From Candidatus Peribacteria bacterium (GTDB lineage: Bacteria; Patescibacteriota; Gracilibacteria; UBA1369; 2-02-FULL-48-14), in the NCBI GenBank assembly GCA_943349825.1, contig CALQZQ010000004.1, forward strand, positions 1 through 51,865: a DNA stretch of 51,865 nt. The letters are read 5' to 3'. Every line of letters starts with the position of its first letter. The stretch's first letter is position 1. A program made the position numbers and the translations under genes. Below are positions 8,076-32,048 of this stretch, piece after piece. The notes under the pieces were generated by a model that did no database searches, was not told the DNA's origin, and was given only the letters and a program-made list of their open reading frames with translations.

Positions 8076-8246
8076 TTACCAAGCAGAGGGAACTAAACCT
8101 TTATTTTCCAGTAATTTATGTGTTCTCTCCACCCATTCCTCCAATGTTCTTTGGGCAAGGTCCACTGGTTTTTCGAAGGGTTTTTCTCCGTCCAATTCAG
8201 GAGAAGGGGTCCTTGTATCGGTGGTATCAGAAGTTCGATCGGTCAT
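8076..8246 (-). CDS. Small acidic protein, 56 residues
   Basis: Not recognised. A Thr/Asp/Pro-rich start (MTDRTSDTTDTRTPSPE) leads to one amphipathic helix (DLAQRTLEEWVERTHKLLEN). The ATG overlaps the 3' end of the preceding zinc/HTH gene by 20 bp and the stop is 32 nt before ackA, so it fits a transcript zinc/HTH - this gene - ackA. Support is only composition and position. Confidence 0.45.
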   Translation of the reverse strand: MTDRTSDTTDTRTPSPELDGEKPFEKPVDLAQRTLEEWVERTHKLLENKGLVPSAW

Positions 8247-8532
8247 AAGGAGCGTAGGTGAGTAATAAATTTTGAGTGTGGAGGCGTTTTTTCCAACGTT
8301 CAATGGTGGAAGGGCTTAATTTTGTGAGGTCAGCAGTTTTCCGTATACTTGTCCCTTTTTTGAGCAGCGACAGTATGGTTAAAATTTCTTCTGAACTGAG
8401 TTTGGAGCCGAAACTAATTTCTCCGTGTCGTGCAGTGTAGGTGCGGTGGCACAGGGTGCAGCGGTAACGTAGTGGACTGCGGTTATGCACGCTCATGGCC
8501 GTGGGATGGCAGGGGGCTCGAGATTTCTTCAT
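8227..8532 (-). CDS. Zinc-ribbon plus helix-turn-helix protein resembling the N-terminus of IS1-type transposases
   Basis: 101 residues. The sequence RYRCTLCHRTYTARHGEISF (about 22-41) resembles the second half of the zinc ribbon found in IS1 InsA and related insertion-sequence proteins. A helix-turn-helix follows (GTSIRKTADLTKLSPSTIERW, about 61-81). The first metal pair is only CH near residue 8 rather than CPxC. No DDE catalytic domain follows and no terminal inverted repeats were found, so it is either a domesticated DNA-binding regulator or a remnant. It begins 11 nt after the terminator of the small peptide gene upstream. Confidence 0.65.
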   Translation of the reverse strand: MKKSRAPCHPTAMSVHNRSPLRYRCTLCHRTYTARHGEISFGSKLSSEEILTILSLLKKGTSIRKTADLTKLSPSTIERWKKRLHTQNLLLTYAPYDRSNF

Positions 8533-8543
8533 ACGAGGAGAGT

Positions 8544-8571
8544 TAAAAAAACCGCTGGAGGCCAGCGGTTT
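8544..8571 (-). terminator. Intrinsic terminator between the 23-residue peptide gene and the zinc/HTH gene
   Basis: Ten-bp perfect stem (8549-8558 with 8562-8571, core ACCGCTGG/CCAGCGGT), a three-nt loop, and a run of seven Ts on the minus strand (8544-8550). The start codon of the zinc/HTH gene lies 11 nt further on, the arrangement of an attenuator. Confidence 0.85.
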
Positions 8572-8594
8572 GTTGTTAGGTTCTGTGAGAAGGT

Positions 8595-8666
8595 CTAGGT
8601 CAACAAATTCCGCCGGCTTTTGGCCGTGATGAGGATGAGACCGAGAATGAGACCTTTGTTGATCAT
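8595..8666 (-). CDS. Putative 23-residue hydrophobic peptide
   Basis: ATG at 8666, stop TAG at 8595: MINKGLILGLILITAKSRRN plus LLT. A hydrophobic helix of about 12 residues is followed by a basic Lys/Arg patch, as in type I toxins or tiny membrane peptides. It has its own promoter (8673-8701) with the -10 box six nt before the ATG, and a strong terminator just after it, so it makes a compact unit of about 120 nt. It could also be a leader peptide rich in Leu/Ile codons that attenuates the downstream gene. A peptide this short cannot be proven coding from sequence alone. Confidence 0.4.
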   Translation of the reverse strand: MINKGLILGLILITAKSRRNLLT

Positions 8667-29781: not shown

Positions 29782-29791
29782 CTTTTTGATA

Positions 29792-30153
29792 TACTTCCTA
29801 TAAGCCGAGTTCTGTACGCAGGTTTTGAGGCCCACGCCATGATCATCTCTCTGGGCCACTTGTTGCCAAGGGGCTCGTGCGGTGAGCGCGGTGGGGCGAC
29901 AGGCCGCCGATTCCACTGCTCCATTCTCACCTTGCAAGAGAAAGGGTTTACCACGCCATCCTCCTCACGGAGGGGCGCCCCGTTCCCACGAAAGGAAGAG
30001 GGGGCGTTTCATTTTGGTCGTCTCTGTGGCACTTTCCCTATGCGCTGTTTTTGAGGCCAACGCACGGTCGCCGTTAGCGACTTTCCTGCCTGATCTTGCT
30101 CGGACTTTCCTCACCACTCAGCCGAAGCTGCGCAGCGCGATCATGCGGAAGTA
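29792..30153 (-). ncRNA. rnpB: RNase P RNA
   Basis: About 362 nt on the minus strand. The universally conserved GAGGAAAGTCCGAGC lies at 30098-30112 and the matching 3' element ACAGAACTCGGCTTAT at 29799-29814. P1 closes by TACTTCC (30147-30153) with GGAAGTA (29792-29798). This is the catalytic subunit that cuts pre-tRNA 5' leaders together with RnpA (3.6-3.9 kb). A near-consensus promoter begins just upstream and a terminator follows. Apparent reading frames on both strands inside this span are chance. Confidence 0.96.
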
Positions 30154-30158
30154 GAGTT

Positions 30159-30187
30159 ATTATAAGCCATTTCTTGCTTCTTGGCAA
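30159..30187 (-). promoter_or_regulatory. Promoter of rnpB
   Basis: TTGCCA (30182-30187), 17-nt spacer, TATAAT (30159-30164, full consensus). Start predicted at about 30152, matching the P1 5' strand. It lies in the last codons of the gene at 30160-30498. Confidence 0.9.
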
Positions 30188-30498
30188 AGAGCTCTTATTG
30201 CCTGCCAAATCACAGTGACTGCTTCTGGAAGCTCACTTTTTAGAATACTCAGATCGGTGACTTTTCTGAAAATTCTTGCATCGATTGGTGGAGCTGCTTG
30301 GGGTGGGAGGTCAGGTATTTTGGTAGCTTTCACGAGACCTAGCATTTCCGCTTCTCTGTATGGAATTTGCACTTGCCTGCCCTCTACTAAAAGACCTGGA
30401 ACCAGAAAATAGGTTTCGGTGTCAGGCATTGGCCTGCCATCGGAATCAAGATCCACACAGACTGCTTCTTCAGGGTCGTGATATTCGTGTGCGGTCAT
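30160..30498 (-). CDS. Hypothetical protein, 112 residues
   Basis: Not recognised. Acidic N-terminus (EYHDPEEAVCVDLDSDGRP), a beta-rich middle (TYFLVPGLLVEGRQVQIPY) and a helical C-terminus (ILKSELPEAVTVIWQAIRAL). No membrane segment. It starts 36 nt after the gene at 30535-30915, probably on the same transcript, and its last codons contain the rnpB promoter. The sequence just before its ATG (TTACCCCATCTCTCT) resembles the leader of two other unknown genes here. Confidence 0.65.
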   Translation of the reverse strand: MTAHEYHDPEEAVCVDLDSDGRPMPDTETYFLVPGLLVEGRQVQIPYREAEMLGLVKATKIPDLPPQAAPPIDARIFRKVTDLSILKSELPEAVTVIWQAIRALCQEARNGL

Positions 30499-30534: not shown

Positions 30535-30915
30535 TCAATATCCGCGTTCGGTCAAACGGTCTACTCTGAAGGAGTGATGTCGGCCGTGAGTAGCAGTATG
30601 GGGAGCGATATGGCGCCTTTCAGCTGCAGCATTGTTCTCCCTCAGCTGGCTTCTGCGGACGCTGCGTGTGTGGAGGCGTTTTGCGTCGGCTTCAGCGTTG
30701 AGGGTGCTCAAGACTTGATCGTGTACGTCTACCACTACCCCTAAAAACTCATTGAGGCGGCTTTTATCTTCGCCAGCCCGCATGGCTAAGCCAATTTTGT
30801 CGAAGACTCGTAAGAGTTGGGTGATCAACTCTGGACTGGTGGGGGCTGCTACTAATTCTAGTAAATCCTTATGGATTTCAGAGGTAAGGGGTCTGGGAGC
30901 TTGGGCTTCTGTCAT
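30535..30915 (-). CDS. Hypothetical helical protein, 126 residues
   Basis: Not recognised. Residues 10-75 are helical (SEIHKDLLELVAAPTSPELI, LLRVFDKIGLAMRAGEDKSR). The C-terminal 45 residues are very basic and His/Arg-rich (RLHTRSVRRSQL, HHSFRVDRLTERGY), which could bind nucleic acid or be a less constrained tail. It begins 12 nt after the U-run of an intrinsic terminator that closes a structured leader RNA with its own promoter, so its expression may be set by transcription attenuation. Confidence 0.65.
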   Translation of the reverse strand: MTEAQAPRPLTSEIHKDLLELVAAPTSPELITQLLRVFDKIGLAMRAGEDKSRLNEFLGVVVDVHDQVLSTLNAEADAKRLHTRSVRRSQLRENNAAAERRHIAPHTATHGRHHSFRVDRLTERGY

Positions 30916-30927
30916 AGAGCTTGGGCT

Positions 30928-30959
30928 AAAAAATAAAAATCCCCTCTTTGTGTGAGGGG
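30928..30959 (-). terminator. Intrinsic terminator in the leader of the gene at 30535-30915
   Basis: Stem CCCCTC/GAGGGG (30941-30946 with 30954-30959) with a seven-nt loop, followed on the minus strand by ATTTTTATTTTTT (30928-30940). The 5' arm can instead pair with GGGGAA of the upstream helix (see the leader RNA), so terminator and upstream helix could be linked. Confidence 0.85.
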
Positions 30960-31090
30960 GAATGGTTTTACCGTGGATTTCTACGGTTTATGCCTGATCT
31001 TTCCCCAACACAGCAGTATTCACAAAGCAAAGCTTTGTAAACCAGTTGCGGCAAATTGGGGAATAAGAAAGATGCATAATGTTGAAAACA
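30928..31090 (-). ncRNA. Structured leader RNA, riboswitch/attenuator candidate (or 6S-like small RNA)
   Basis: About 160 nt from the promoter at 31097-31124 to the terminator at 30928-30959. A long interrupted helix is visible from three paired blocks: 31074-31079 with 30988-30993, 31068-31073 with 30997-31002, and 31056-31061 with 31003-31008 (18 pairs). Inside it sits a 7-bp hairpin ACAAAGC/GCTTTGT (31022-31038) and an open internal loop. A small ACCGT/ACGGT hairpin then precedes the terminator. GGGGAA at 31001-31006 can pair either in the long helix or with UUCCCC of the terminator arm (30957-30962). No known riboswitch class was recognised. The open central loop in a long rod also resembles 6S RNA shape, without sequence support. 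Confidence 0.55.
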
Positions 31091-31114
31091 ACCCTCATAC
31101 TATAGGGTTGTTTT
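31085..31114. terminator. Hairpin downstream of the 87-residue gene
   Basis: Eleven-bp perfect stem AAAACAACCCT/AGGGTTGTTTT with an eight-nt loop, U-rich on both sides, 25 nt beyond the stop of the gene at 31139-31402. It is a likely terminator for that gene. The -10 box of the leader RNA promoter lies in its loop. Confidence 0.65.
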
Positions 31115-31124
31115 ATTTTGTCAA
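31097..31124 (-). promoter_or_regulatory. Promoter of the structured leader RNA
   Basis: TTGACA (31119-31124, full consensus), 16-nt spacer, TAGTAT (31097-31102). Predicted start near 31090. A TATAGT overlaps it but would leave only a 14-nt spacer. Confidence 0.55.
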
Positions 31125-31138
31125 ATTTTGGATTGGGT

Positions 31139-31402
31139 TCAATGGAAGAATCTCTGGATGACCACTTCCGGGAGAAAACGCTGGTACCAGGGAGCTGCGC
31201 TTTTTGTTATTTTTAGGGCTTCTGCTCCGGTTGCTTCTCGTTCGGCGGCCAGTTCTGCGGCCTTTCCTTCTGTTTTCACTCTCAGTTCTACCTCACTTAG
31301 CCAACTAATACCTGGACTAACATTTGGATTGGGTGACTTGCCTTTTGTAAGAGTTTGCGTGGGCCCCCATCCGCTGTTCCCGTTTGCTTCGTGCCTTTTC
31401 AT
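31139..31402 (-). CDS. Hypothetical protein, 87 residues
   Basis: Not recognised. A Gly/Asn/Pro-rich N-terminal half (GNSGWGPTQTLTKGKSPNPN) is followed by a helical segment (EGKAAELAAEREATGAEALK) and an aromatic end (APWYQRFLPEVVIQRFFH). A reading frame of similar length exists on the plus strand, but its composition (Ser/Phe/Val/Leu runs) looks like a shadow. Flanked by a terminator hairpin downstream. Confidence 0.5.
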   Translation of the reverse strand: MKRHEANGNSGWGPTQTLTKGKSPNPNVSPGISWLSEVELRVKTEGKAAELAAEREATGAEALKITKSAAPWYQRFLPEVVIQRFFH

Positions 31403-31454: not shown

Positions 31455-32048
31455 TCAAGCGCGATCTTCCTTGAGTTTTTTGAACTCACGTTGGAAGAAC
31501 TTTGCGGTTTCCAGGCAATCTTTGGCCTTTTCGTTGTTGGGTTCCAGGCGGAGTGCCTCTTCGAGCAACTTGATGGTGGCTTCGAATTGGCGGTCGTTGA
31601 GATAACAGACGGCCAAATCGCACATGATGAGGGTGTCTTTGGGAGCCATAGCTTTGGCACGTTCCAAGATCACGAGGCCGCGTTTGCGGTCGCCACTGTG
31701 GAAGATGGACCAGCCCAAGCAGCGCAGGATTTCTGGGTGGTGGGGTTGGACGCGGTTGGCGAGTTCCAAGGTTTCTACAGATCGTTCAAATTCCCCGGTG
31801 GAGGAGTAGAGAAAGCCCAATAGATAGAGGGCGTTCGGGCTCTTGGGGCGGATGCGCAGGGCGTACTTGAGGGCTTTCATGGCCTTGTCGTATTCGCGGA
31901 GGCTCAAATAGTTGTCCCCGATTTCTTCGTAGGCCTCGACGTATTCGAGATCCATCAGAAGCATCTTGTTGGAGAGAGCAATGGCTTCGCCGTGCTGTCC
32001 TGCCAACTTCAGACCATCGGCCTGTTTTAAAAGATCATCGAGTACCAT
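31455..32048 (-). CDS. TPR-repeat protein
   Basis: 197 residues, all tetratricopeptide repeats (about five, 34 residues each): AYEEIGDNYLSLREYDKAMK, NALYLLGFLYSSTGEFERSV, ILRCLGWSIFHSGDRKRGLV and CDLAVCYLNDRQFEATIKLL. TPR arrays are protein-protein interaction scaffolds. No signal peptide, so cytoplasmic. It has its own strong promoter and no operon partners, so the binding partner cannot be inferred. Confidence 0.9.
   Translation of the reverse strand: MVLDDLLKQADGLKLAGQHGEAIALSNKMLLMDLEYVEAYEEIGDNYLSLREYDKAMKALKYALRIRPKSPNALYLLGFLYSSTGEFERSVETLELANRVQPHHPEILRCLGWSIFHSGDRKRGLVILERAKAMAPKDTLIMCDLAVCYLNDRQFEATIKLLEEALRLEPNNEKAKDCLETAKFFQREFKKLKEDRA

Follow-up and report, generated by a model that had tools for sequence, protein, structure and literature searches.

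A probable ribosome-mediated transcription attenuator upstream of two ORFans in an uncultured relative of Candidatus Peregrinibacteria

A leader RNA on the minus strand of the window (the whole stretch of 51,865 nucleotides analysed here) is likely to be a ribosome-mediated transcription attenuator, in which the position of a ribosome on a short reading frame would decide between an intrinsic terminator and an antiterminator pairing ahead of two ORFans. By analogy, we propose that it works like an amino-acid attenuator, and we do not claim it as a typical one because its leader frame has no cognate codon run; such a run defines the amino-acid-sensing subclass and not all leader-peptide attenuators. 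We place the proposal no higher than likely because of this missing run and because each feature of the leader has a considerable background rate.

The source genome (G000; 1.25 Mb, 98.8% complete) belongs to an uncultured bacterium whose nearest named relatives carry the names Candidatus Peregrinibacteria, Peribacteria or Gracilibacteria. A conserved TPR gene (31455-32048) and the RNase P RNA gene rnpB (29785-30156) flank the leader and its ORFs, all of them on the minus strand; the TPR gene forms the upstream edge of the slot, and rnpB, which probably has its own promoter at 30187-30159, the downstream edge.

Leader folds and reading frame

The leader RNA (166 nt) folds with -52.6 kcal/mol, compared with -33.2 +/- 3.9 for shuffled sequences (z -4.96), and none of the 200 shuffles was as stable. 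In the predicted fold, 31079-31056 pair with 31008-30988 in a long interrupted helix (span 30988-31079). The sequence-only reading had described an 18-bp interrupted helix at this place; the pairing blocks are there, but they are split by internal loops and do not make up one helix. The inner hairpin that it saw within the long helix is present as an 11-bp hairpin around 31042-31018, as is a second small hairpin (ACCGU-AGAAAUCC-ACGGU, 30970-30987), a spacer between the leader stop and the terminator. The intrinsic terminator, also seen before, occupies 30928-30959 (CCCCTC-ACACAAA-GAGGGG followed by ATTTTTATTTTTT), with its hairpin at 30959-30941, a U-tract running to 30928 and the start codon of the next ORF (ATG at 30915) 12 nt past the U-run.

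An alternative pairing competes with this terminator. Its 5' strand, UGUG-UU-GGGGAA (UGUGUUGGGGAA, 31001-31012), and its 3' strand, UUCCCC-CU-CACA (UUCCCCCUCACA, 30951-30962), the latter made of the 5' arm and loop of the terminator, form an antiterminator (31012-31001 with 30962-30951) that excludes the terminator hairpin at 30959-30941. The pairing of GGGGAA (31006-31001) with UUCCCC (30962-30957) had been recognised earlier as a possibility, but its extent was understated, UGUG and CACA adding four more pairs past a 2x2 loop. Folding predicts that in ribosome-free RNA the antiterminator strand is sequestered in the long helix. With at least the first third of the leader masked in imitation of a ribosome, and the nascent RNA folded as it would be before the 3' arm of the terminator is made, the antiterminator was the minimum-energy fold.

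The promoter claimed upstream of these elements is present as a sequence match on the minus strand (TTGACA at 31124-31119, a 16-nt spacer and TAGTAT at 31102-31097; 10/12). Taken alone this call is weak, because about two such sites per 3 kb are expected by chance; the position of the site relative to the leader ORF, whose ATG follows 19 nt after it, agrees with that in other leaders of the genome. Its -10 box falls within the loop between the 11-bp arms of an inverted repeat (AAAACAACCCT-ATAGTATG-AGGGTTGTTTT, 31085-31114), which is terminator-like on both strands, with the stronger U-tract on the plus strand. Judged from these features, the repeat is a probable terminator of the upstream unit, and it could alternatively serve as an operator. 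Between the TPR gene and the repeat lies an 87-aa ORF (31139-31402, minus strand) that has no relatives and a poor coding score.

A reading frame of 29 codons that had been overlooked occupies the same stretch as the long helix (MHLSYSPICRNWFTKLCFVNTAVLGKDQA*; minus strand, ATG at 31077 to TAA at 30988), and this frame is predicted to be translated. Its end overlaps the antiterminator strand, which falls in codons 22-26, and 28 nt separate its stop from the terminator hairpin (20-32 nt in 15 other leaders); the geometry of leader ORF, antiterminator and terminator is that of the other leaders of the genome. In folding simulations, a ribosome on roughly codons 2-20 frees the antiterminator, a ribosome that is absent or near the stop leaves the terminator free to form, and the switch point is codon 20.

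Under the attenuator model, transcription would start near 31090 and the leader ORF would be translated at once. First, with no ribosome on the leader, the long helix would hold the antiterminator strand, the terminator (30959-30928) would form and the downstream genes would be off. Second, fast translation would bring the ribosome to the stop (30988), where it would cover the antiterminator strand, so that the terminator would form again. Finally, a ribosome stalled on roughly codons 2-20 would cover the 5' arm of the helix, leaving 31012-31001 to pair with 30962-30951; this pairing would block the terminator, and the ORFs at 30535-30915 and 30160-30498 would be transcribed. The switch logic of the sequence-only reading finds support in the folds and in the sister leaders as far as the helix leads to termination and the alternative pairing to expression, but in place of the ligand or factor that it assumed as the signal, a translating ribosome is most likely.

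That assumption has its counterpart in a ligand-sensing riboswitch or a protein-controlled attenuator, which would use the same terminator/antiterminator logic with translation irrelevant and the ORF a chance frame. Such an element would account for the strong fold, the mutually exclusive pairing and the terminator 12 nt before an ATG, and a 29-codon frame whose peptide has no codon runs is not improbable by chance. We nevertheless consider it unlikely, given that the leader matches no Rfam family, that the conserved aptamer expected in relatives was found in none of them, and that some ten leader-peptide attenuators with this geometry are present in the genome.

The single features of the proposed attenuator are not rare. 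The same stall pattern is seen in 28% of codon shuffles, and in 9% when the naked RNA is also required to be in the terminator state; of the other intergenic terminators, about 17% come with an ATG ORF whose end is suitably placed, and in 17% the pairing energy is at least as favourable as -15. These background rates (17-28% for single features), the resemblance to an ordinary terminator shown by the inverted repeat around the -10 box and the lineage-specific character of the island are what one would expect if the terminator of an upstream unit and a stable intergenic hairpin had come together by chance, with no regulatory function. We regard this as very improbable because of the fold (z -5) and because the full architecture recurs in the same slot of another genome of the family (G004); a further argument against it is that two terminators, the inverted repeat and that of the leader, stand about 126 nt from each other and enclose a promoter-like site.

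As to what an attenuating ribosome would sense, the leader peptide has no run of control codons. Cys is its only enriched residue, and weakly so (2 of 28, codons 9 and 17; binomial p 0.026, uncorrected). The offsets of the other leaders predict control codons ending at about 15-20, that is Leu16, Cys17, Phe18, Val19 and Asn20. The ribosome would probably stall for want of an amino acid whose codon lies close to the switch point; Cys (codons 9 and 17) is our best guess, and Phe is possible.

Sister leaders in the genome and its relatives

The whole genome was scanned, with hand-set thresholds, for intrinsic terminators directly before start codons. Thirteen sites had at least 90 nt of free upstream sequence, and several of them carried short leader ORFs with codon runs. 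A strict scan, a relaxed scan and inspection together gave the clear sister leaders; the Ser, Leu or Val runs that the relaxed scan listed in some frames are chance. About ten other leaders of the window design with runs of a single amino acid were found in this way, and in three of them the run is cognate to the gene that follows: an III leader precedes IleRS, a TTTTTT leader ThrRS and a YYY leader a phenylalanine hydroxylase (Biopterin_H, PF00351, E 8e-73). The two synthetases were assigned by reading their protein sequences and by the near-universal conservation of ileS and thrS. Of the remaining leaders, a nine-Thr leader stands before a 60-aa ORFan, one with FFF and FFF before an 85-aa ORFan, a WW leader before a 177-aa ORFan and a KK-KK leader before a RimK-like ATP-grasp protein; there is also a CC leader, and VVVV and I/L-rich leaders, which may be different in nature, precede transposon-like HTH genes. 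An HHH leader heads an operon that includes a gene of the Trp_repressor family; in Firmicutes the TrpR-family regulator HisR controls histidine genes (PMC9413887). The candidates lie at C2:8994(-) and C3:77584(+) for Thr, C1:192460(-) for Ile, C2:96946(-) for Tyr, C2:47009(-) for His, C2:48873(-) for Phe, C2:118736(+) for Trp, C7:37497(-) for Lys and C2:219402(+) for Cys. The simulated switch point fell at the end of the control-codon run, or at most one codon from it, in 11 of the 14 run-bearing leaders.

The window itself contains a second leader built in this way (locus 8227-8666, minus strand): it has an Ile/Leu-rich leader ORF (MINKGLILGLILITAKSRRNLLT*, 8666-8595), a strong antiterminator pairing and a terminator from 8571, and downstream of it lies a gene for a 101-aa resolvase/transposase-like HTH protein (8532-8227, minus strand).

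Sequence comparison indicates that two of the sister leaders, those for Ile and Tyr, are conserved by descent. The ileS leader of a congener (G001) keeps three ATT (Ile) codons, the stop, the GCGAGAGG/CCCCTCGC antiterminator and the terminator, with the remaining codons of the peptide changed, and in another genus (G002) the orthologous hydroxylase is preceded by a Tyr-Tyr leader, MMFNTYYASSGR, and a terminator. The DNA of this latter leader (L206) and that of the window leader near 31085-31069 have TTATGCATCTT in common, preceded in both by TTCAACA, which is probably chance. The Thr leader before ThrRS was found in its own genome and in no relative; a second promoter-like site lies there between attenuator and thrS. 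Upstream of ileS, T-box-like motifs were noticed by eye in some relatives, and Rfam did not confirm them.

The full genome of G004 has leaders of its own: two for Phe, at C2:73969(-) before a DUF3182 protein and at C2:157889(-) before a protein without a Pfam match, one for Tyr at C1:91158(-) before a weakly GCS2-like protein and one for Arg at C4:102932(-) before a weakly pre-ATP-grasp-like protein. From these sequence resemblances it is possible that the linked proteins are amino-acid ligases under amino-acid-specific control.

It is conceivable, although we stop short of calling it probable, that this Candidatus Peregrinibacterium family has about one leader-peptide attenuator for each amino acid, a broad network which besides tRNA synthetases and phenylalanine hydroxylase would mostly control lineage-specific genes of unknown function, the pair in the window among them. 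The bacterium is thought to depend on its neighbours for amino acids, and if the network exists, the attenuator-linked ORFans become candidates for scavenging or host-interaction functions. Gene regulation in the CPR has been little explored; an amino-acid-specific set of attenuators would reveal which amino acids such small-genome bacteria monitor, and each leader would offer, in its inducing amino acid, a physiological handle on an ORFan that is beyond the reach of sequence comparison. The mechanism itself is classical, and what appears to be unreported is its use on such a scale in a CPR lineage: the open-access literature yielded no work on attenuation of transcription in the CPR or in Peregrinibacteria, an absence that is not proof of novelty.

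The TPR-rnpB slot and the downstream ORFs

The TPR gene and rnpB adjoin in many relatives, and in others the gap between them, up to more than 3 kb in size, is filled by different genes; because of this, the sequence comparison identifies the window leader and its ORFs as a lineage-specific insert in a variable slot. In the congener G001, other genes occupy the slot. Among TPR-rnpB slots of at least 300 nt, the leader architecture was found only in the window and in G004, whose slot leader (MINSNIIISLLPQATTVVCFKVERA) likewise has its terminator before an ATG and carries Cys-Phe at about the same place as the window leader. Between these two slots, neither the leader nor the downstream ORF shows recognisable homology. 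Searches of 58 relatives and of the TPR-rnpB slots at 80 GTDB loci found no homologue of the window leader, and hence there is no covariation to report for it. Within the element, Rfam covariance models gave chance-level matches only, even at permissive E-values, in line with the earlier failure to recognise a known class.

A 6S-like free RNA had been offered as the alternative to a switch. In a wider form, a free-standing small RNA of 6S or other type would end at the terminator, and the ORFs would be unrelated to it, either differently transcribed or non-genes. The promoter-like site, the strong terminator, the presence of ORFans downstream and a stable RNA of about 160 nt dominated, as in 6S RNA (RF00013), by one long interrupted hairpin are all consistent with this. 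Moreover, RF00013 was unmatched throughout G000 and the five other genomes of its family (G000-G005), where 6S RNA may have been lost or have diverged strongly, which makes a diverged 6S formally possible. However, members of one genus share their housekeeping RNAs, and no copy could be detected in the congener G001; 8 of the 14 other relatives searched, outside the family, have clear 6S matches, and where compared these lie on a contig other than that of the TPR gene. The window RNA also lacks the large central bubble of 6S RNA and has its terminator directly before an ORF, no separate promoter being apparent between that terminator and the ATG, and G004 repeats the terminator-before-ATG arrangement in the same slot. 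The 6S proposal thus lacks support, and a small RNA of any kind seems to us improbable here.

If the leader is an attenuator, its putative first target is a 126-aa ORFan, predicted to be all-helical (30535-30915, minus strand), and its putative second target a 112-aa ORFan of uncertain coding status (30160-30498, minus strand). Their coding scores are intermediate (0.118) and lower (0.007), respectively, on a scale where real genes score 0.28 +/- 0.17 and spurious frames -0.20 +/- 0.23, and as ORFans with such scores they may be non-genes. Pfam, a whole-genome protein search and genome and viral collections gave no homologue of either, and no similarity appeared among the ORFs of the slots and the other attenuator-linked ORFans. 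Single-sequence AlphaFold models the first as three helices (pLDDT 70) that match nothing in the PDB significantly (best E 0.77), and gave no usable model of the second (pLDDT 43).

Comparison with known systems

The trp, his, ilv, thr, pheA and pheST leaders of Enterobacteria are ribosome-mediated transcription attenuators of amino acid operons, and in the E. coli trp attenuator it is ribosome stalling on a short leader peptide that decides whether transcription continues. Like these, the window leader has a leader ORF, a helix that forms without translation, a terminator just before the gene and an antiterminator in which the last part of the leader ORF pairs with the terminator's 5' arm, and its sister leaders before IleRS, ThrRS and phenylalanine hydroxylase share the cognate codon runs. 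Unlike them, the window leader has no codon run, precedes ORFans rather than biosynthetic genes, matches no Rfam leader family and belongs to an uncultured CPR lineage (Candidatus Peregrinibacteria). Leader-peptide attenuators have been described in Actinobacteria (PMC1262725) and His-leader attenuators in Firmicutes (PMC9413887), and the theory of ribosome-mediated attenuation has been worked out (PMC1183508). A second type of leader peptide senses antibiotics or general translation stress, as in vmlR (PMC9226507) and the E. coli topAI uORF (PMC12121999). Although no resistance-type or ABC-F gene lies downstream of the window leader, our proposal has in common with this type a stall inside the leader ORF that does not require repeated codons and that controls the expression of what lies downstream.
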